DNA from: Flavobacterium sp.
GTDB lineage: Bacteria; Bacteroidota; Bacteroidia; Flavobacteriales; Flavobacteriaceae
NCBI GenBank assembly: GCA_029946065.1
Contig: JAQSDU010000019.1
Coordinates: 62,001 to 126,000, forward strand
Direction of reading: 5' to 3'
DNA: 64,000 nt
Below are positions 36,525 to 46,953 of this stretch, one piece after another. A model generated the notes under the pieces. The model worked only from the letters and a program-made list of their open reading frames with translations, made no database searches and was not told where the DNA came from. Position 1 is the stretch's first letter, and every line of letters begins with the position of its first letter. The position numbers and the translations under genes are program-made.

Positions 36525-38471
36525 TTATCTGATAACTAATTTTCTTGTAGCAGTGTTGCCATCTTCAGTAATCTTAACGATATAAACGCCACCTTTAAGG
36601 CTTGACACGTTTACTTCGCTTGTAACAGTTTTTGTATTTAGAACCACTTTGCCTAATACATCATAAACTACAACCGCTTTTTCAGCATTTGCTGAAGTTT
36701 CGATGAATAATTTACCGTTGGTTACTGGGTTTGGATATACTTTTAGGCCTGCAATGTTAGAGTTGTTTATTCCTAAATTAGTGCCAGTTACTTCTTCCCA
36801 TGTAGTACCGATTCTTAATGCATCGATTTGTAAAGAAGGCGTTTCTGTAGCACTATCTTGTCTAAAGAAAAACTTGTTGATTGTGGCTAAATCTGTAGCA
36901 GTGTGTGTGTCTGTTATAGTAGCTGTAGGTTCTGGAGATCCAACAACTGGATTGATCCAAAGGTTAACCGAATCATCAGCAGCATCAGCACCAAAAGTAT
37001 AAGCTACAACAACAAAGTAAGTTTGGCCAGTTTGGTAAGCATCTGGAGTCCAGGTTGTATTTGCTGCATTAGCAGTCCTAACTTCAACACCAAAATTAAA
37101 ATTGGTATCATCAACTTGCTTAGTCCATAAAGTTGCTCCGAATGTAGTTGTGCTTGATCCAAGACCAGCAAAATAACCACCATTAGGATCAGTTACACCA
37201 GTCATTGAACTTATATTCGTTAGGAAAGAGTAATAAACGGTACCACTTGTTACATCACTTGTAGTCAAGAAAGTATCGATTCCGCTTCCGGCAAAAGAGA
37301 TAGAGTTTCCAACTTCAGCCAACCCTGTATAACTAAGATTTCCTGCTGTTGTCAAAATATCATCACCAGTATTTATGTTAGCCCAGTTTGTTTGTCCTCC
37401 TAAAGCGGCACCTTCAGCATAAGCAAATTGCTCAGAAAAAGGTAGTGCAACACCTGTAGGTGGTGGCGTACAGTTTGGAGAAGTTACATTAACAGTAAGG
37501 TTACAGTCACCGCCATTAGCAGTAAAAACAAGATTAGTGCCTTCGCTTAATCCTGTAATAATGATATTTCCAGAAGCAGTAGTGCTTGGATTGTCTCCGC
37601 CTATAGTTCCTGAATCGGCGTTAAGATTGTATGTGCCTGTCGCACCTCCTATAAAAGGAATTGTTACAGTGTAAGTATCAGTTCCTCCAGTAATAGCATC
37701 GCAAACTTTTGTAGCAGCTTGAAAAGCCAAAGGACATGTTGGAGGAGGTGTATTACCAAACCAACCAGCATCTACATATAAACCATCAATAGTGATGTTT
37801 TGTGTTAATGCAAATTGACGTAGATAAACACCAGCAATTGTAGCTAAACCACCACCTGAAGCAGTAGCTTCAGCAGTTCCAGCGGCAGCTTCAGTAGAAG
37901 GAACTCCTGAGGTTTCTACCCATAGGCTAACAGAGCCTGCAACCGCAACATCATATTTTACAATAATTAAGTAGGTAGTATTTAAATCAAAATCAGTTGT
38001 TCCATAGGTACCAGTTGATGTATTTGATACGCCAAAGTTAATCTTGTCTGGAGTAGTTGAAGGGCGTACGAAAATTCTTGCAGCAAAATTTGTAGTGCCA
38101 TTTCCTAAACTTGTAAAATAGCCGCCAGTAGCAATATCGCTTGGAGAACTTACATTTACTAAAAACGAATAATACAGAGTTCCAGAAGTAACACTTGCAG
38201 CAAACGGTTTGTTAACATCTTCGCCTGTATTATCAAGTAATGCAGCGTTTCCTTCAGCTGATGCGGTTATTCCAGTTAATCCTGAATAGCCTGCATAAGA
38301 TAAACCATTTGATGCACCAACATCAATAGAATTAGTGCCTGCTCCACTCTGTGCTGTCCACCCATTATCAATGAGTAAAGCACCGTCGGCATAATTTAAG
38401 TTATCAGTAAATACCTGACCAAATGACACAGTAGTTAATGCTAACAATAGTAAAGTGTAAAGTTTTTTCAT
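36525..38471 (-). CDS. T9SS type A sorting domain-containing exported protein with two related N-terminal/central modules
   Basis: Signal peptide; C-terminal KVYPNPVTNGKLFIETS...VYDVLGKVV...GVYIVKITEDGNTATRKLVIR. Confidence 0.88.
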   Translation of the reverse strand: MKKLYTLLLLALTTVSFGQVFTDNLNYADGALLIDNGWTAQSGAGTNSIDVGASNGLSYAGYSGLTGITASAEGNAALLDNTGEDVNKPFAASVTSGTLYYSFLVNVSSPSDIATGGYFTSLGNGTTNFAARIFVRPSTTPDKINFGVSNTSTGTYGTTDFDLNTTYLIIVKYDVAVAGSVSLWVETSGVPSTEAAAGTAEATASGGGLATIAGVYLRQFALTQNITIDGLYVDAGWFGNTPPPTCPLAFQAATKVCDAITGGTDTYTVTIPFIGGATGTYNLNADSGTIGGDNPSTTASGNIIITGLSEGTNLVFTANGGDCNLTVNVTSPNCTPPPTGVALPFSEQFAYAEGAALGGQTNWANINTGDDILTTAGNLSYTGLAEVGNSISFAGSGIDTFLTTSDVTSGTVYYSFLTNISSMTGVTDPNGGYFAGLGSSTTTFGATLWTKQVDDTNFNFGVEVRTANAANTTWTPDAYQTGQTYFVVVAYTFGADAADDSVNLWINPVVGSPEPTATITDTHTATDLATINKFFFRQDSATETPSLQIDALRIGTTWEEVTGTNLGINNSNIAGLKVYPNPVTNGKLFIETSANAEKAVVVYDVLGKVVLNTKTVTSEVNVSSLKGGVYIVKITEDGNTATRKLVIR

Positions 38472-38499
38472 TTCTTAGTTTTTAATAAAAATTATTGTG

Positions 38500-38507
38500 C
38501 AAAGATA
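38500..38507 (-). promoter_or_regulatory. -7 box TATCTTTG for the T9SS cargo gene
   Basis: Minus-strand TAnnTTTG match. Confidence 0.6.
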
Positions 38508-38515
38508 ACAAGTAA

Positions 38516-38535
38516 TTTGTTTTATCTAAAACAAA
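38516..38535. promoter_or_regulatory. Perfect inverted repeat TTTGTTTT-ATCT-AAAACAAA
   Basis: 8-bp arms, 4-bp spacer, 8 bp upstream of the -7 box. Confidence 0.6.
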
Positions 38536-38578
38536 CCATGTGAAAAAAACATTAAATTGTAACAAATAAAAATAATAA

Positions 38579-38905
38579 TTACTTGACAATCAGTTTTCTT
38601 GTGGCGGTAGTTTCGCCTTCCTTGATCTTGATGATGTAAACGCCAGGAGATAATGTAGAGATGTTCAACTCTTTATTGGCTGTCTTTTGTTCGAAAACCA
38701 ATTTGCCTAAAACATCAAAAATAGCGATTTCTTTTTCCAATGAAGTTTTGGAAGTAATATAAATCTTACCATTACTCACCGGGTTTGGGTAGAAACTCAA
38801 TTCCGTGGTACTAGGTTGCAACGGTTTGTTTTCCTGAGCTTGGGCGCCAACAGTAAAAAAACAACACAACAGTAAGATAATATAAAAGTAGTTTTTTGGC
38901 ATCAT
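38579..38905 (-). CDS. Minimal T9SS type A sorting-domain protein (signal peptide plus CTD)
   Basis: 108 aa: MMPKNYFYIILLLCCFFTVGAQAQ then FYPNPVSNGKIYI...GVYIIKIKEGETTATRKLIVK. Confidence 0.85.
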   Translation of the reverse strand: MMPKNYFYIILLLCCFFTVGAQAQENKPLQPSTTELSFYPNPVSNGKIYITSKTSLEKEIAIFDVLGKLVFEQKTANKELNISTLSPGVYIIKIKEGETTATRKLIVK

Positions 38906-39019: not shown

Positions 39020-40219
39020 TTAGAAACCAGCAGTCCAACCAGCAGCCCATGTTGGGGCTCCAATACCGTTTCCAGCGCCTGTTGCAGCACCTTCAGTAAA
39101 TACAGCAGTTACATCTACAGTAGCACCAACTGTTTCTGGCGCTACGACAGTAAGCGTTCCTTTAGATTTTGCAGCAACGTCTGCAATGAAGTTTACATTG
39201 GTAGCTTTTAGGCTTCCAGCAGCGATATTGGCAACAGTTTCATCATTTTCAACATTGAAACCTTGTTTCCAGCTGCTCAATACAACATTGGTAAAAATTC
39301 CTCTTGTACCTCTTCTCAATTTTAAACCATTGTTCTCTGTATAAACAGTCGCGTCAGCAGTACTTCCGGCACCAATTAAAGTAAGGTTGGTAATTGTTGG
39401 GTTTGAGATTGGTGTATTAGCAAATCCAAATTCGTAGTTGTCTGCTTCAATACCTCTGTTTCCTTTACCAAAATCTAATTTACCATACCAGTTGGTATTG
39501 GTTCCATTCCAACCTTCAGTCCAGTCAAATTGATCGTCTTCGTTACCAATTGAAACCAAGTTTGAAGTGTTTACTGTACCTCCAAAAAATTCAAATCCGT
39601 CATCAGCACCGTGAAATGCTTGTACATATTCAAATGTTGTTCCAGAACCAACACCAAATAATGATACACCGTTGAATTCTTTTGTAGCACTAAATGAAGC
39701 ACCAGCATATTCAACTCTTAAATATTTTATTGAACCAGAATTATCGTTAGCGATAGTTCCACCATAAGTTAAACCTGCAACTTCTGATGAAGCTGTAGCA
39801 GTACCACCGGAAACATCATTAATTGGTGCTTTTCCACAAATTACAAGTCCACCCCAATCTCCAGCAGCTTTCGTTGCCAATCCACTTGTCATTACTACTG
39901 GGTTTGAAGCAGTTCCGTTGACGTTGATTTTTCCACCTTGAGCAACAGCAATATAAGAAGATGTTCCGTTAATTCCTTCAATAACTGTTCCTGCAGGAAT
40001 TGTTAAAGTTGCTGTTTCTTTTACAATAAGTGCGCCTGTTAATTTGTAAACAGTGTTGGCATTAAGTATTACTTCACCATCTTCAATATTTCCTTGAAAG
40101 TTATTGGCATCCAATTGAAATGTAGAAGAAGAAGAACTGTCGTCAGAGGATGAACATCCCGTAAGTATTGTTGCTGTTACAGCAAAAATTCCGAATAATT
40201 TTACGATTGATTTTTTCAT
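39020..40219 (-). CDS. Lipoprotein with parallel beta-helix-like repeats
   Basis: Lipobox TATILTGCSSSDDSSSSS; VIEGINGTSSYIAVAQGGKINVNGTASNPVVMTS beta-helix pattern. Confidence 0.78.
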   Translation of the reverse strand: MKKSIVKLFGIFAVTATILTGCSSSDDSSSSSTFQLDANNFQGNIEDGEVILNANTVYKLTGALIVKETATLTIPAGTVIEGINGTSSYIAVAQGGKINVNGTASNPVVMTSGLATKAAGDWGGLVICGKAPINDVSGGTATASSEVAGLTYGGTIANDNSGSIKYLRVEYAGASFSATKEFNGVSLFGVGSGTTFEYVQAFHGADDGFEFFGGTVNTSNLVSIGNEDDQFDWTEGWNGTNTNWYGKLDFGKGNRGIEADNYEFGFANTPISNPTITNLTLIGAGSTADATVYTENNGLKLRRGTRGIFTNVVLSSWKQGFNVENDETVANIAAGSLKATNVNFIADVAAKSKGTLTVVAPETVGATVDVTAVFTEGAATGAGNGIGAPTWAAGWTAGF

Positions 40220-40247: not shown

Positions 40248-40255
40248 CAAAGGTG
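40248..40255 (-). promoter_or_regulatory. Weak -7 box CACCTTTG of lipoprotein gene
   Basis: Partial TAnnTTTG match. Confidence 0.4.
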
Positions 40256-40277
40256 GGGCAACTTTAGAAACGCAATG

Positions 40278-40321
40278 TTAATTCAATGTCAAGGTTAGCT
40301 TAATTTAAGTTTACTTGCGTT
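40278..40321. promoter_or_regulatory. Four 11-bp phased repeats TTAATTCAATG/TCAAGGTTAGC/TTAATTTAAGT/TTACTTGCGTT
   Basis: TTAA-like cores at 40278, 40289, 40300, 40311. Confidence 0.6.
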
Positions 40322-40363
40322 AATGTTTTCTAAAAGGAACGCCCGTTGTTAGTACGTTTCTTG

Positions 40364-43114
40364 TTAAAATTGATAATTGATATTTAAACTTAATGTCAGT
40401 CCTTTTTTGTAGGATAGCACATTTACATCGCCTGAATTATTTTCTTGAACTCTGTTGATTGTTGGGTCTAGAATATTTTTCACGACCAATCCAAGTCCGA
40501 TTTGTTTATTCAACTTTGATTTGGCAATAAAATCTAATGAGCCGAAAGCTTTGTCAACCTGATTGCCCATATCGTTAGTTCCGATGGAGTAGATTCGGTC
40601 TGAAAAATAGGTATAAGCTAGTGTAGTCATGAAGTTACTTTGTTTTTCATTCCACTCGTTTAAGTAAGAAATGTCAGCATTTAGTAACAAATCAGAAGCG
40701 CCCGTAAGTCCGGTTTCTTTTTCGGTAAAAGCTACATTATAAGCGGTCTCTTTTGCGACTTTAACATCGCTTAATTTTTGGTTGGTATATAAATAAGAAG
40801 CATTAATACCGGCAGACAATTTTTTAGCATTGCTTTCGCCGAAATTAAAAATTTGCTTTCTATATTCGACTTCTCCACCCGCAACATAACCATAATCACC
40901 TGTGTTAATGTAGGAAACGTCATTTGTTGAAGAAAGAATTGTAACTTCATTAATTGGGTTTTGGATGTATTTTCCAAAAGCAGTGAATGAAATGAGTTCT
41001 TCGCTTTTCGGGAACATTTCCCATTTTATATCCACATTATAGTCGTCTGAGGCATACAAATCTGGATTTCCAAATTTCGCTTCATTCACTTCTTCATATA
41101 CAAAAAGTGCTCTTTCTTTAAATTGTGGTAAAGTATAGGTTTTACTGAATCCGAATCGCAAATTTTGTTTTTCGTTCAATTCATACTTCAAAGTTAAACT
41201 TGGTAGAAATGCAAATTTATCCAATTGGTCATCATCCCCATTAGGATCCAAAGAAGTATTCCATGCTACTTTTTGAATTATAGATTCGGCCCTTAAACCT
41301 AAAACGCCACTCAATTTATTGAATTTGTATTCGGTATTTACATAACCGCCGTTTATCATTAAATCGCCATTATAAAATTGTGGCTTGGTGGCATTTGGTA
41401 CTTGTGAACCACCTTTGAATGTTGAAATTTCAAAATAATCGTTTGCAAAATTTTGTTGGTTGTAAAACAAATCCAAATTATTAGGATCAACGATAGTATT
41501 GGTTACGGCGCTGCTGGCTTTGAAGTTAAATTGTGTAGCTTCAAAATCACGTTTTTTTGACCTTCCAGAATATCCTACCGTTATTTTTCCTTTGTAATCG
41601 CCTTCGGCTGTTTTAACAATTTTATAGTCTACAGATGCGTTTACTGCCAATTCATCTTCTTTTAAGTTTTGAAAATATCGGTGGTTATCTGCAGCAGAAA
41701 TACTAGAAAGCACATAGCCAGTTGGTTCTTTTCTAAAAGTATTTTGCGCCCTATCTGGTTGTTTGCCGGTAATTGTGTTGTATGAAACACCCCAATTTAA
41801 TTTAGACCGCTCGCTTAACTGATGATCACCTAACAATTGATTGATCCACAAGCTGTTTTTGTCATATTTAAAACGGCGAATCAAGCCATTACCGTCGTTA
41901 GCAATATCAACAATATATCCGGTATATTCTTCGGTAGATTGTCCGCTTGTATTGATGAAAAGTGTATTAAAATTAAGCTTATTGTTGGCGTTTATTTTAT
42001 AGCCAACATTACCCATTGCTGTCGTATTGGTGTTATAGCTTACAAGGGTGTATTTTTGATAATCTCTGTTGATAACACCACTCCCGTTAACGCCACCTTT
42101 TGCAGTTCCGTCGCTTCTTGAAGAATAATCATTGTCGAAACCAACGGTTGCAAATAAGTTTAATTTTCCTTCTTCACCAACATTAAAAGATTTTCCGCCA
42201 GCAAGGTTAAACGAACCTGCAATCGGATTTTTTGATTCGGTTTGCAGCGAATTGAATTTGTAACTTGTAAGCGCATTGCTCGGAATAGTAACATTGCTAA
42301 ATCCAGAACTGCTCGGTCCTTTTTGAAGTCTAAAATCATCTTCTGAAAGCGCGTTTGTATTCACTTTTGAGCCAACATCTAATTTTAAAAATCCTTTACC
42401 TTTGTAATCTTTAGATACAATGTCAACATTTCCGCCAGCAAAATCGCCATACAATTTACTGTTATATACTTTATCAATGCCAATTGATTCGACAATATCG
42501 GTTGTAAAAATCTCTAGGTTTAGATTCTTTTTTCCCGGATCATTTGATGGAACTGGCAATCCGTTCATAGTGGTTGAGTTATAACGGTCACCCAATCCTC
42601 TAACGAAAATATTCCCCGAACCTTCTTGTTTGGTGATTCCGGTAGTTTTGGTTACGGCAGTAGCCACATCGCTAACGCCTTTTCTCGACATTTCTTGGGC
42701 GCCAATGCTTTGCTTAATTTGAACAGCATTTTTTTGGTCCAATAAAAGGGCTGATTCTTTTTCCTTGTTTACCGTTGTTGTCAGTACTACATCTTGAAGC
42801 GTGACACTACCTGAGCCGATAGTTTTGTTAATTTCAAGGGTTTCGTTCGCTTTTATAGTAAACGGAAATTCCAGTGTTTCATAGCCAACAAAACTGATTA
42901 CAAGAACATGGTCGCCGGCTTCGACATTTAAACTGTATTTTCCTTCGATGTCTGTAGTAGTGCCAACACTTGTACCTTTTAACATTACATTGGCGAAGGG
43001 CAGCGCCTCATTATTTGAATCTTTATCCGAAATAATGCCGGAAACCGTACCTTTGTTTTGTGCGAACGACGCAGCAAAGATGAACAACGTGATCAATAAT
43101 AATTTGAGTTTCAT
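40364..43114 (-). CDS. TonB-dependent receptor with N-terminal carboxypeptidase-like domain
   Basis: GTVSGIISDKDSNNEALPFANVMLKGTSVGTTTDIEGKYSLN, plug GSGNIFVRGLGDRYNSTTMNGLPVPS, C-terminal NINYQF; start chosen at MKLKLLL. Confidence 0.93.
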   Translation of the reverse strand: MKLKLLLITLFIFAASFAQNKGTVSGIISDKDSNNEALPFANVMLKGTSVGTTTDIEGKYSLNVEAGDHVLVISFVGYETLEFPFTIKANETLEINKTIGSGSVTLQDVVLTTTVNKEKESALLLDQKNAVQIKQSIGAQEMSRKGVSDVATAVTKTTGITKQEGSGNIFVRGLGDRYNSTTMNGLPVPSNDPGKKNLNLEIFTTDIVESIGIDKVYNSKLYGDFAGGNVDIVSKDYKGKGFLKLDVGSKVNTNALSEDDFRLQKGPSSSGFSNVTIPSNALTSYKFNSLQTESKNPIAGSFNLAGGKSFNVGEEGKLNLFATVGFDNDYSSRSDGTAKGGVNGSGVINRDYQKYTLVSYNTNTTAMGNVGYKINANNKLNFNTLFINTSGQSTEEYTGYIVDIANDGNGLIRRFKYDKNSLWINQLLGDHQLSERSKLNWGVSYNTITGKQPDRAQNTFRKEPTGYVLSSISAADNHRYFQNLKEDELAVNASVDYKIVKTAEGDYKGKITVGYSGRSKKRDFEATQFNFKASSAVTNTIVDPNNLDLFYNQQNFANDYFEISTFKGGSQVPNATKPQFYNGDLMINGGYVNTEYKFNKLSGVLGLRAESIIQKVAWNTSLDPNGDDDQLDKFAFLPSLTLKYELNEKQNLRFGFSKTYTLPQFKERALFVYEEVNEAKFGNPDLYASDDYNVDIKWEMFPKSEELISFTAFGKYIQNPINEVTILSSTNDVSYINTGDYGYVAGGEVEYRKQIFNFGESNAKKLSAGINASYLYTNQKLSDVKVAKETAYNVAFTEKETGLTGASDLLLNADISYLNEWNEKQSNFMTTLAYTYFSDRIYSIGTNDMGNQVDKAFGSLDFIAKSKLNKQIGLGLVVKNILDPTINRVQENNSGDVNVLSYKKGLTLSLNINYQF

Positions 43115-43135
43115 TTTATGTTGTTTAATTTTTTG

Positions 43136-43143
43136 CAAAGGAA
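43136..43143 (-). promoter_or_regulatory. Weak -7 box TTCCTTTG of TonB-receptor gene
   Basis: Partial TAnnTTTG match. Confidence 0.4.
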
Positions 43144-43165
43144 CTGTTGTTTTGTAAAGTTTCCG

Positions 43166-43187
43166 TTAATCGGCCGTTACGTTTAGG
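43166..43187. promoter_or_regulatory. Two 11-bp phased repeats TTAATCGGCCG/TTACGTTTAGG
   Basis: Cores at 43166 and 43177. Confidence 0.55.
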
Positions 43188-43217
43188 TGTTCTTAATATT
43201 ATCAAAATGTTAAGCAA

Positions 43218-43250
43218 TTAAATTACAGTTAACGGCTGTTTACCGAAGTG
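43218..43250. promoter_or_regulatory. Three 11-bp phased repeats TTAAATTACAG/TTAACGGCTGT/TTACCGAAGTG
   Basis: Cores at 43218, 43229, 43240. Confidence 0.55.
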
Positions 43251-43296: not shown

Positions 43297-43980
43297 ATGA
43301 AGAAAAAAGACATCAAGATTCTTTTGGTTGACGATGAACTCGACATCCTCGAAATTGTAGGGTATAACTTGGCACAAGAAGGTTATCAGATCATCACAGC
43401 CGTGAATGGTAGGGAAGCGGTCGCAAAAGCTAAAAAAGAATTACCCCAACTCATCATTATGGATGTCATGATGCCCGAAATGGACGGAATGGAGGCAACA
43501 GAACTCATCCGAAAAATGCCGGAACTGCAAAATGTCATTATCACTTTCCTTACAGCAAGGAGCGAAGATTACTCGCAAGTTGCCGGTTTTGATGCCGGTG
43601 CCGACGATTATATTACCAAACCGATCAAGCCAAAACTGCTCGTTAGCAAGGTAAAAGCACTGTTGCGAAGATTAAAAGGGGAAGAACAAAATTCAGACAC
43701 ACTCAACGTTGGCGGCATCGAAATCAACCGCGAAGAATATAAAATCATCAAAGACGGTGTCGAGATTATTTTGCCAAGAAAAGAATTTGAACTGTTTTAC
43801 TTACTCGCATCAAAACCCGGAAAAGTATTCAAACGCGAAGAGATTCTCGATAAAGTTTGGGGCAATGAAGTGATAGTCGGCGGCAGAACTATTGACGTGC
43901 ATATCAGAAAACTAAGAGAAAAAATCGGTGACGACTTTTTTAAAACCATTAAAGGAGTTGGTTATAAATTTGAGGTTTAA
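43297..43980 (+). CDS. OmpR/PhoB-family response regulator
   Basis: Receiver LLVDDELDILEI, IIMDVMMPEMDGMEA, ADDYITKP; winged helix GGRTIDVHIRKLREKIGDDFFKTIKGVGYKFEV. Confidence 0.95.
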   Translation: MKKKDIKILLVDDELDILEIVGYNLAQEGYQIITAVNGREAVAKAKKELPQLIIMDVMMPEMDGMEATELIRKMPELQNVIITFLTARSEDYSQVAGFDAGADDYITKPIKPKLLVSKVKALLRRLKGEEQNSDTLNVGGIEINREEYKIIKDGVEIILPRKEFELFYLLASKPGKVFKREEILDKVWGNEVIVGGRTIDVHIRKLREKIGDDFFKTIKGVGYKFEV

Positions 43981-44040: not shown

Positions 44041-45096
44041 ATGAGCCTAAACTTTAAAAAAACATACAAGTTTGCCATAAAATCGGCGTTATACATCACG
44101 CTGTTTGCTACTGGTTTTGTATCCATTTTGGGTTATTTTTTCTTTAAACCATCGCAAAATAACCTGATTGCATTTGCGCTCGCATTTGCGTTTTCGCTTT
44201 ACATTTTTTCGTTTTTTGTCATTCAATACCGCGTTGAGGTTTTTATTTACAGGCGTGTGAAGAAAATTTATGATGACGTGTCATTTTTGGAAGCCAGCTC
44301 TTTTCGCAAACAGCCAATTACAACCGATATGGCGACATTGACCAAAGAAGTCAAGAAATTCGCCACCGACAAGAAAATGGAGATCGAAACACTAAAAGTC
44401 CGCGAGGAATACCGCCGCGAATTTTTAGGCAATGTGTCGCATGAACTTAAAACGCCATTATTTACGGTACAAGGCTATCTTTTAACGTTGCTAGACGGCG
44501 CGATGAACGACAAAACCATTCGAAAAAAATACTTACAAAGGGCTGAAAAAGGTGTCGAAAGACTTATTTTTATCGTACAGGATTTAGACATGATTACCAA
44601 ACTCGAATCGGGCGATTTGAACCTCACAGTTTCTAAATTTAATATTGTTGAAGTGGTGCAAAATGTCTTCGATTTACTCGAAATGGAAGCAGAAAAGAAA
44701 AACATCATCTTAACTTTCGACAACAAATATGCCAAGCCGATTATGGTTTTTGGGGATCAGGAAAAAATCCAGCAAGTCATTACGAATCTTGTAGTGAACT
44801 CTATTAAATATGGTAGAAATGACGGTTCAACAGAAGTCGGTATCGAAGATATTGCCAATAATAAAGTAATTGTGCGTGTTAATGACAACGGCGAAGGTAT
44901 CGAGAAGCACCATTTGTCAAGACTTTTTGAAAGGTTTTATCGTGTTGACAAAAGCGGCGCAAGGGCAGAAGGCGGCTCCGGTCTCGGATTGTCGATTGTC
45001 AAACACATTATAGAAGCACATGACGAGAAAATTTATATCGAAAGCCAATATGGCAGCGGCTCAGAATTTTCATTCACCATCGAAAAGGCGGAATAA
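44041..45096 (+). CDS. PhoR-like sensor histidine kinase
   Basis: FLGNVSHELKTPLFTVQGYL (H box), NLVVNSIKYG (N box), GSGLGLSIVKHIIEAH (G box). Confidence 0.95.
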   Translation: MSLNFKKTYKFAIKSALYITLFATGFVSILGYFFFKPSQNNLIAFALAFAFSLYIFSFFVIQYRVEVFIYRRVKKIYDDVSFLEASSFRKQPITTDMATLTKEVKKFATDKKMEIETLKVREEYRREFLGNVSHELKTPLFTVQGYLLTLLDGAMNDKTIRKKYLQRAEKGVERLIFIVQDLDMITKLESGDLNLTVSKFNIVEVVQNVFDLLEMEAEKKNIILTFDNKYAKPIMVFGDQEKIQQVITNLVVNSIKYGRNDGSTEVGIEDIANNKVIVRVNDNGEGIEKHHLSRLFERFYRVDKSGARAEGGSGLGLSIVKHIIEAHDEKIYIESQYGSGSEFSFTIEKAE

Positions 45097-46134
45097 CAGA
45101 TGCCAGTCGATGGTATTTTCGATTACTGAAAATCCGGAATAGACCTCTGCTTCCCATAAGTTTTCCATCTTAAACTTGTTTTGTTTTGCAAAAGGAACAA
45201 TGCCTCTTTCCTTTAATTTTTTGGCAAGATATTCTTGTTCATACTGTCCTGGTGTTGGAATAAAAAATGCTTTTTTGCCTAATTGTGCCAAATCCATAAT
45301 CGTAGTATAGCCCGAACGGCAAAGCACTAATTTACTTTCGTTAAACGTTTTTTCAAGTTGTTCAGAATTCATGAAATTGTAGTATTTCACGTTGTCTTTG
45401 ATCGTTGATAGCTGTTCTGCTTCGATTATTCCGCTAATAAAAACCACTTTTCCATTAAACTGCATTAGTTCGGTTTTTATCTTCTCTTCAAGCATTGTTC
45501 TTTGTGGTTCAGGTCCAGACAAAATGACCATTAAATCATATTTCTGAGGGATATTCAATTTCCTGATACGGCTCAACGGACCGATATATTTGATCTTTAA
45601 ATTTGTTTTTTTAAGATGGCCGAGTTTTCCGGTCAGGTTGGGTTTTTTTTCAAAATCAGGCACCCAACATTCGTGGAATTTTTTGATGATGAACTGGTGC
45701 ATTTCACTGGTTAGTTTTGAAGTATTTCCAGTAAGAACATTGAGCTGGTGCGTAATAAAAACAGATGGAATCTTTTTGCTGCGAACGCCCAAACGGTTGT
45801 CAGAAATAATGCCGTCAAGCTGATGTTCCGAAATCCATTGGTTGACAGTCCGTTTTTCATTCAAAATAGCAGTAACCATTTTTGGGAGTCCGGCAATCAT
45901 TTTCCATTTAAAATTACGGCCGTTTTTGGCATAAGTAATTTCGTATGATGGTAATTCGATAGACTTCAGGTGTGGAAACTCTTTTTTCAGCATTTCCAAA
46001 GCGGCTCCATCCGAGGCCAGAATCGGGCGAAATCCTTCCGCTTCCAATGCACGGATTATCGGAATACAACGGGTGGCGTGTCCTAAACCCCAATTTAAAG
46101 GGGCGACTAGAATGTTTTTAGGAGTAGTTCTCAA
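45070..46134 (-). CDS. MurG-like glycosyltransferase
   Basis: APLNWGLGHATRCIPIIRALE; CRSGYTTIMDLAQLGKKAFFIPTPGQYEQEYLA. Confidence 0.85.
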   Translation of the reverse strand: MRTTPKNILVAPLNWGLGHATRCIPIIRALEAEGFRPILASDGAALEMLKKEFPHLKSIELPSYEITYAKNGRNFKWKMIAGLPKMVTAILNEKRTVNQWISEHQLDGIISDNRLGVRSKKIPSVFITHQLNVLTGNTSKLTSEMHQFIIKKFHECWVPDFEKKPNLTGKLGHLKKTNLKIKYIGPLSRIRKLNIPQKYDLMVILSGPEPQRTMLEEKIKTELMQFNGKVVFISGIIEAEQLSTIKDNVKYYNFMNSEQLEKTFNESKLVLCRSGYTTIMDLAQLGKKAFFIPTPGQYEQEYLAKKLKERGIVPFAKQNKFKMENLWEAEVYSGFSVIENTIDWHLLFRLFDGE

Positions 46135-46278
46135 TACTTTTGTTTTTCTTTGCGATCATTTTTATTAAATCTCGCAAAGCCAAAAAGCCGCAAAGATTGT
46201 CAAATTCTAAAAGCTAAAGATAAAACTATTTGAGGTATTTTATATTTCCGTAATTTTACCAAAATATTAAACAATATC

Positions 46279-46953
46279 GTGGGAAGTAAAAATAAATTAA
46301 AAAGATTCAAGGAAAACGAGACATTCGAAAATGTTTTTCAACCGACAAGAGAAGAAGTTACAGGAGGGCTATTTCCGCTAAAAGGAAAATGGAATACCGA
46401 TTTTTTCAAAAATAACCATCCGCTTGTCTTAGAATTAGGCTGCGGAAAAGGAGAATATTCTGTCGGTTTAGCCGAAAAATATCCAAACAAAAATTTCATC
46501 GGAATAGACGTCAAAGGTGCGCGTTTCTGGCGTGGTGCGAAAACTGCCGTAGAGGACGGAATGCGCAATGTCGCTTTTATTCGCACGCAAATTGAACTGC
46601 TCGATTACGTTTTCGCCGAAAATGAAGTCGATGAAATTTGGATCACTTTTCCTGATCCACAAATCAAATACAAGCGCACCAAACATAGGATGACGAATGG
46701 TGAATTTCTACAACTTTATAAAAAAGTTTTAAAGGAAGGCGGCGTCATGAATCTCAAAACCGACAGCGAATTCATGCACGGTTATACTTTGGGTGTGCTG
46801 CACGGCGAAGGCCATGAAGTGTTGTATGCCAACCATAACATATATAAGAATGAAGGCAGTCCGGAGGAAGTGACCGGTATCCAGACTTTTTACGAAAAGC
46901 AATATTTGGAAGTTAATAAGGCGATTACGTATATTCGATTCAAAATAAAGTAA
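46279..46953 (+). CDS. trmB: tRNA (guanine-N7-)-methyltransferase, GTG start
   Basis: LELGCGKGEYSVGLAEKYPNKNFIGIDVKGARFWRGAKTA, WITFPDPQIKYKRTKHRM. Confidence 0.95.
   Translation: MGSKNKLKRFKENETFENVFQPTREEVTGGLFPLKGKWNTDFFKNNHPLVLELGCGKGEYSVGLAEKYPNKNFIGIDVKGARFWRGAKTAVEDGMRNVAFIRTQIELLDYVFAENEVDEIWITFPDPQIKYKRTKHRMTNGEFLQLYKKVLKEGGVMNLKTDSEFMHGYTLGVLHGEGHEVLYANHNIYKNEGSPEEVTGIQTFYEKQYLEVNKAITYIRFKIK

Follow-up and report, generated by a model that had tools for sequence, protein, structure and literature searches.

The window, that is, the whole 64-kb stretch of DNA analysed, carries a response regulator gene and a sensor kinase gene on the plus strand and, divergent from them, a receptor gene and a lipoprotein gene:

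39020–40219, minus strand: lipoprotein, ortholog of the low-phosphate lipoprotein FII (Fjoh_0546), assigned by its position downstream of the receptor gene
40364–43114, minus strand: TonB-dependent receptor with a carboxypeptidase-regulatory domain (Pfam), ortholog of Fjoh_0545, a neighbour of phoB in almost every orthologous locus examined
43297–43980, plus strand: phoB, response regulator of the OmpR/PhoB family (Pfam Response_reg and Trans_reg_C), positional ortholog of Fjoh_0544 PhoB
44041–45096, plus strand: phoR, sensor histidine kinase (HisKA and HATPase_c), with PnpS and PhoR as best NCBIfam matches, below their cut-offs

No Pfam family was found in the lipoprotein. The product of 43297–43980 has the receiver plus winged-helix (Trans_reg_C) architecture and, among 36 matches to the Bacteroides PhoB model in this genome, it ranked first, yet below the curated cut-off; against the NCBIfam PhoB models TIGR02154 and NF053854 it scored 210.2 of 296.2 and 204.8 of 270 bits, and the equivalog cut-offs were not reached. 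It was named PhoB because of its position and its orthology to Fjoh_0544, and not from the NCBIfam PhoB models. By position, the orthologous locus in F. johnsoniae is the phoBR/PUSIV cluster (Fjoh_0541–0549; PMC8115612), which has the same set of genes, for PhoB, PhoR, the TonB receptor, lipoprotein FII and a glycosyltransferase. In F. johnsoniae the receptor, the lipoprotein, phoB and the glycosyltransferase are all induced by low phosphate. The log2 fold changes upon phosphate depletion are 3.1 for phoB (Fjoh_0544), 8.0 for the receptor (Fjoh_0545), 9.9 for the lipoprotein (Fjoh_0546) and 11.6 for Fjoh_4889, which lies outside the cluster and resembles a lipoprotein paralog subfamily; the study is one of expression only, and the term Pho box occurs 0 times in its text (PMC8115612). 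From these orthologs, induction of the downstream genes by phosphate starvation is predicted here also.

Both minus-strand genes are preceded by an element close to the -7 consensus of the Bacteroidota primary sigma factor, TAnnTTTG (PMC2483708), and by short repeats upstream of it. In the receptor promoter, CAAAGGAA at 43136–43143 is followed by a 22-bp gap and then by TTAATCGGCCG (43166–43176) and TTACGTTTAGG (43177–43187); on the coding (minus) strand this reads GTAACGGCCGA, TTAACGGAAAC and TTTACAAAACAACAG in succession, then TTCCTTTG. About 9 bp separate TTTACA from the -7 octamer. The features of this promoter, with offsets counted from TTTG and conservation counted among Flavobacterium orthologs, are:

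43136–43143, minus strand: putative -7 element of the receptor gene, TTCCTTTG on the coding strand, one mismatch to TAnnTTTG
43154–43158, minus strand: putative proximal Pho half-site TTTAC, offset -18, T[TC]AC in most orthologs
43165–43169, minus strand: putative Pho half-site TTAAC, offset -29; T, second A and C in 29/29, first A in 28/29
43176–43180, minus strand: putative Pho half-site GTAAC, offset -40; TAA in 29/29, C in 21/29
43198–43201, minus strand: putative upstream in-phase half-site TAAT, offset -62; T in 29/29, AA in 27–28/29
43209–43212, minus strand: putative upstream in-phase half-site TAAC, offset -73; C in 28/29

In the lipoprotein promoter, CAAAGGTG at 40248–40255 is followed by a gap of the same 22 bp and by TTAATTCAATG starting at 40278, and the coding (minus) strand reads GTAAACTTAAA, TTAAGCTAACC, TTGACATTGAA and TTAACATTGCG in succession, then N15 and CACCTTTG:

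40248–40255, minus strand: putative -7 element of the lipoprotein gene, CACCTTTG on the coding strand, one mismatch to TAnnTTTG
40277–40281, minus strand: putative Pho half-site TTAAC, offset -29; TAA in 22–25/25, C in 21/25
40288–40291, minus strand: putative Pho half-site TGAC, offset -40
40299–40302, minus strand: putative Pho half-site TAAG, offset -51; TAA in 23–25/25
40310–40313, minus strand: putative weak in-phase half-site TAAA, offset -62, poorly conserved in orthologs

The strings, 22-bp gaps and coordinates given for both promoters in the preliminary description were exact. The repeats that it listed are real and its list was incomplete, the receptor promoter having in addition TTTAC at 43154–43158, TAAT at 43198–43201 and TAAC at 43209–43212. 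It had further proposed a shared string, GTTAAT-N5-GTyAnGnTTAG, of which the TAAC-like cores are conserved in orthologs while the extra GTyAnGnTTAG similarity is not.

Within the 64-kb window, TAAC pairs at a distance of 11 bp occurred twice when both strands were counted, like other spacings, which is not significant by count and would fit a chance resemblance of two A/T-rich promoters in one window. Therefore the claim needed testing on other genomes. At the default threshold and with paralogs counted, 97 of 100 related genomes gave a match to the receptor gene; its best orthologs adjoin a divergent gene for the same response regulator and are followed by the same lipoprotein gene. When 29 receptor promoters were aligned on TTTG, sharp information peaks appeared at -73, -62, -40, -29 and -18, each separated from the others by a multiple of 11; the position of the boxes at -18/-29/-40 relative to the core promoter element is fixed across orthologs. 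Conservation of the repeats at this offset in related flavobacteria, for which the preliminary description had proposed a search, was found: two TAACs 11 bp apart stand upstream of receptor orthologs in 25 of 29 Flavobacterium genomes and at 52 of 80 named loci, with 0 pairs at spacing 10 or 12. Markov-shuffled controls for the 25/29 count gave a mean of 0.42 and a maximum of 3 (500 trials). The 80 loci come from Flavobacterium, Winogradskyella, Polaribacter, Tenacibaculum, Myroides, Aequorivita, Sphingobacterium and others, F. johnsoniae not being among them; in their 150 nt upstream, the distance between TAACs was 11 in 67 cases, 10 in 0 and 12 in 0, with more peaks at 22 and 33. Orthologous promoters are related and not independent, so that Fisher values computed on them exaggerate the significance; the zero counts at neighbouring spacings are unaffected by kinship. 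The 11-bp TAAC pattern is thus, as sequence comparison goes, far beyond chance across orthologs; conservation over 29 Flavobacterium-related genomes and many genera refutes a chance resemblance, to which we assign a negligible probability.

The repeats recur about once per helical turn in promoters that are A/T-rich, and so they might be a structural feature, such as curvature or an UP-like element, and no specific operator. Against this, the C at offset -26 in the core never varies (29/29), no pairs are spaced by 10 or 12, and a TAAC pair at 11 bp was present in only 1 of 208 other intergenic upstream regions of the same genome. Moreover, within 76 nt upstream of the -7 box in the receptor promoters, 89 of the 98 TAACs fall into a single phase modulo 11, counted from that box. 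We regard a structural feature as highly improbable; it was rejected, together with chance, on the 1 of 208 background promoters, the 89/98 phase and the shuffled mean of 0.42 out of 29. At the -7 elements, TTTGC stands in 29/29 orthologous receptor promoters (the alignment being anchored on it) and TTTG in 25/25 lipoprotein promoters (likewise anchored on TTTG). Upstream of TTTGC in the receptor promoters TT, and not TA, is kept, which is consistent with dependence on an activator.

The lipoprotein array is more degenerate: strict TAAC pairs were found in 4 of 27 orthologous promoters and TAAY pairs in 16 of 27, and the case could therefore not be built on the lipoprotein promoter alone. Among the TAACs of the lipoprotein promoters, 32 of 47 stand in the same modulo-11 phase as those of the receptor promoters.

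Other carriers of the repeat were sought in the whole genome. A loose pattern search was dropped, as it returned mostly background and control counts exceeded the real ones; it was replaced by a sequence-only profile, R1, built from 37 receptor and lipoprotein promoters and anchored, in which matches below about 17 bits were taken as noise unless supported by orthology. The top R1 match outside the locus (22.9 bits; TTGACATTAAC, TTAACATTCAC and TTAACATTGGCAGAATACCTTTGC in succession) lies directly upstream of what is presumably a DUF47 gene, followed by what we take to be a Pit-type phosphate transporter gene. The TTAACAATGGCTTAACATT repeat recurs among 28 copies of the DUF47-Pit promoter, all but one of them from other genomes; 23 of the 28 have the 11-bp repeat, and the 130 nt upstream contain 24 TAAC pairs at 11 bp and 0 at 10 or 12. 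The pst operon is a classical PhoB target. In noncoding DNA around 30 pstC loci of the class Bacteroidia, 23 TAAC pairs had the 11-bp spacing, whereas other spacings averaged 0.54, and among 256 tetramers TTAA and TAAC/GTTA were the most enriched at 11 bp. Binding of the pstC promoter by B. fragilis PhoB has been observed by EMSA (PMC3547664).

Paralogs of the receptor and lipoprotein genes were also found to carry boxes. On contig C15, a receptor paralog next to a lipoprotein-like gene has TTAATTTTAAG followed by TTAAC 34 nt from the end of TTTG, a distance identical to that in the lipoprotein promoter. This second TonB-receptor gene, with TTACATATTG-TTAATTTTAAG-TTAAC at the lipoprotein-type offset from the -7 box (C15:21780–21890; L031, 3780–3890), adjoins a large protein with a lipoprotein-FII-like domain, and from its sequence it is a candidate second low-phosphate locus. 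Nine members of one lipoprotein paralog group, which corresponds to Fjoh_4889 by relative genome position, have three to four in-phase boxes with the last exactly at -18 from TTTG. Another lipoprotein-FII paralog subfamily (L236–L244) is without boxes and would be useful as a negative control for expression.

Several other places were inspected. An R1 match at C4:64304 (16.8 bits) is probably a false positive, lying in a conserved noncoding stretch whose TTATCAA/TTTTCAAC repeats resemble a replication origin; this stretch (C4:64150–64400, L167) has TTAAC repeats and several TTATCAA/TTTTCAAC motifs, and is present in three other Flavobacterium genomes (L155, L159 and L160). This genome has no PhoX (PF05787), and PhoX homologs elsewhere gave scattered matches only. 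Two contig ends of Flavobacterium limi (L143 and L150) bear near-identical three-box arrays, TCATAAC..GATAAC..TTTAC, possibly a repeated element with a Pho-like promoter. In the window, no TAAC pair at 11 bp was found upstream (46135–46280) of the glycosyltransferase gene (45070–46134, minus strand), whose F. johnsoniae ortholog Fjoh_0541 is low-phosphate-induced; its induction may be indirect or the site degenerate. Two T9SS-sorted proteins are encoded downstream of the lipoprotein gene (36525–38905, minus strand), and such a pair was seen upstream of neither.

The regulator gene itself is preceded by a further set of boxes:

43218–43244, plus strand: boxes TTAAA-N6-TTAAC-N6-TTACC with 11-bp spacing, between phoB and the receptor gene

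Upstream of phoB, TTAAAT(T/A)A..GTTAAC/GTAAAC is conserved in most of 28 genomes. The orientation of the boxes is ambiguous because TTAA and GTTAAC are palindromic, and their spacing to the putative -7 element of phoB is unlike that in the other promoters. From sequence, they are probably the site of phoB autoregulation.

Direct repeats of this kind are known from other phyla. The Bacillus subtilis PhoP box consists of TTAACA-type direct repeats. The Pho box of cyanobacterial SphR consists of CTTAACCT repeats with 3-bp linkers (PMC1906773). Like the array described here, both have a TTAA(C) core repeated head-to-tail with an 11-bp period upstream of phosphate-starvation genes; phylum and regulator are different, and the Flavobacterium array is locked to the Bacteroidota -7 element of the TAnnTTTG type and is found at TonB receptor and lipoprotein genes besides Pit and Pst. 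The pho box of E. coli PhoB, CTGTCAT, is made of two 11-bp units of 7 conserved and 4 variable positions (PMC4415409, PMC1906773) and precedes the -10 element by about 10 bp (PMC1906773). It is similar in having at least two 11-bp direct repeats at a similar distance to the core promoter element, and differs in its core (TGTCA versus TAAC here) and in unit number, with up to five or six in-phase units here. Closest in taxonomy is PhoP of Riemerella anatipestifer, which belongs to the same order, Flavobacteriales: the most conserved motif bases by DAP-seq are TTTAACA, and EMSA showed that the protein binds the promoter of its own gene and that of a TonB-receptor gene (PMC9603813). The two cases have in common the half-site core, autoregulation and a TonB receptor as target. 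The Riemerella study describes 583 PhoP peaks, mostly away from phosphate genes, with only 50 genes with upstream sites changed in expression in the phoP mutant; the text consulted mentions no 11-bp array tied to a -7 box, and the affected genes it highlights are not those of phosphate uptake (PMC9603813). The likeness is one of motifs, Riemerella PhoP being a possible ortholog of the 43297–43980 product.

A genuine OmpR-family operator could also be read by another response regulator, with an indirect phosphate response. The genome has five other full-length or nearly full-length matches to the PhoB model (141–185 bits), TTAA-type repeats are common to OmpR-family regulators, and the Riemerella PhoP motif was likened to that of ArcA (PMC9603813). 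The boxes stand, though, at phoB itself, at the adjacent receptor and lipoprotein genes and at Pit and pst, which is the classical PhoB target set, and we consider another regulator unlikely. The response regulator at 43297–43980 is likely the ligand of the boxes. The preliminary description had proposed an OmpR/PhoB-type operator with a TTAA core read by the neighbouring PhoB-like regulator, and the ortholog, Pit, pst and paralog comparisons support that proposal at the level of sequence. Weighing against it are the scores of the regulator below the PhoB cut-offs, the glycosyltransferase gene with no TAAC pair at 11 bp upstream, the degenerate lipoprotein array and the many Riemerella PhoP peaks away from phosphate genes. 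We hold with high confidence that the repeats are a Pho box at which PhoB would activate transcription. What the DNA itself shows is that the repeats exist, in which phase they stand, that they are conserved and that other genes of phosphate uptake have them too.

The Pho box proposed is an array of 5–7-bp half-sites with the core (T)TAAC, which follow one another head-to-tail with an 11-bp period and keep a constant phase to the -7 element. For PhoB binding, polymerase recruitment and the start sites we infer the following course. Upon phosphate starvation PhoR would phosphorylate PhoB, and PhoB dimers or larger tandem assemblies would fill the array from about the -33 region upstream. As E. 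coli PhoB would suggest by analogy, the boxes at -18/-29 over the -33 region would let PhoB recruit RNA polymerase with the Bacteroidota primary sigma factor to the weak -7 boxes, and the receptor and lipoprotein genes would be switched on. The boxes between the divergent phoB and receptor genes would probably autoregulate phoB too. A further, speculative possibility, which we rate as rather doubtful, is that the phoB-receptor intergenic region is covered from end to end by an unbroken array of five to six PhoB half-sites in a locked phase, where a single cooperative PhoB assembly would both activate the receptor gene and autoregulate phoB, and that the grammar of the array (fixed 11-bp phase, variable box number) would set induction strength in a Bacteroidia-wide Pho regulon.

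The type of operator is known already: 11-bp PhoB/PhoP boxes have been described, Bacillus and cyanobacteria have TTAAC cores, and the half-site has been published for Riemerella. It appears to be new that the operator is defined for Flavobacterium, that its offset to the -7 element is fixed and that it recurs at pst and pit over Bacteroidia; no Pho box for Flavobacterium or the class Bacteroidia was found in the non-subscription literature searched. Bacteroidota are major in the phosphorus turnover of soil, rhizosphere and sea, and have unusual uptake genes. Being short and specific, the operator sites lend themselves as DNA targets to tests of binding and of promoter activity, and they separate direct from indirect targets in published transcriptomes. 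Since the 11-base-spaced signal recurs at phosphate-uptake genes across Bacteroidia, it allows predictions of which of their genes react to a shortage of phosphate, and its fixed offset to the -7 element makes such low-phosphate genes predictable from sequence alone.
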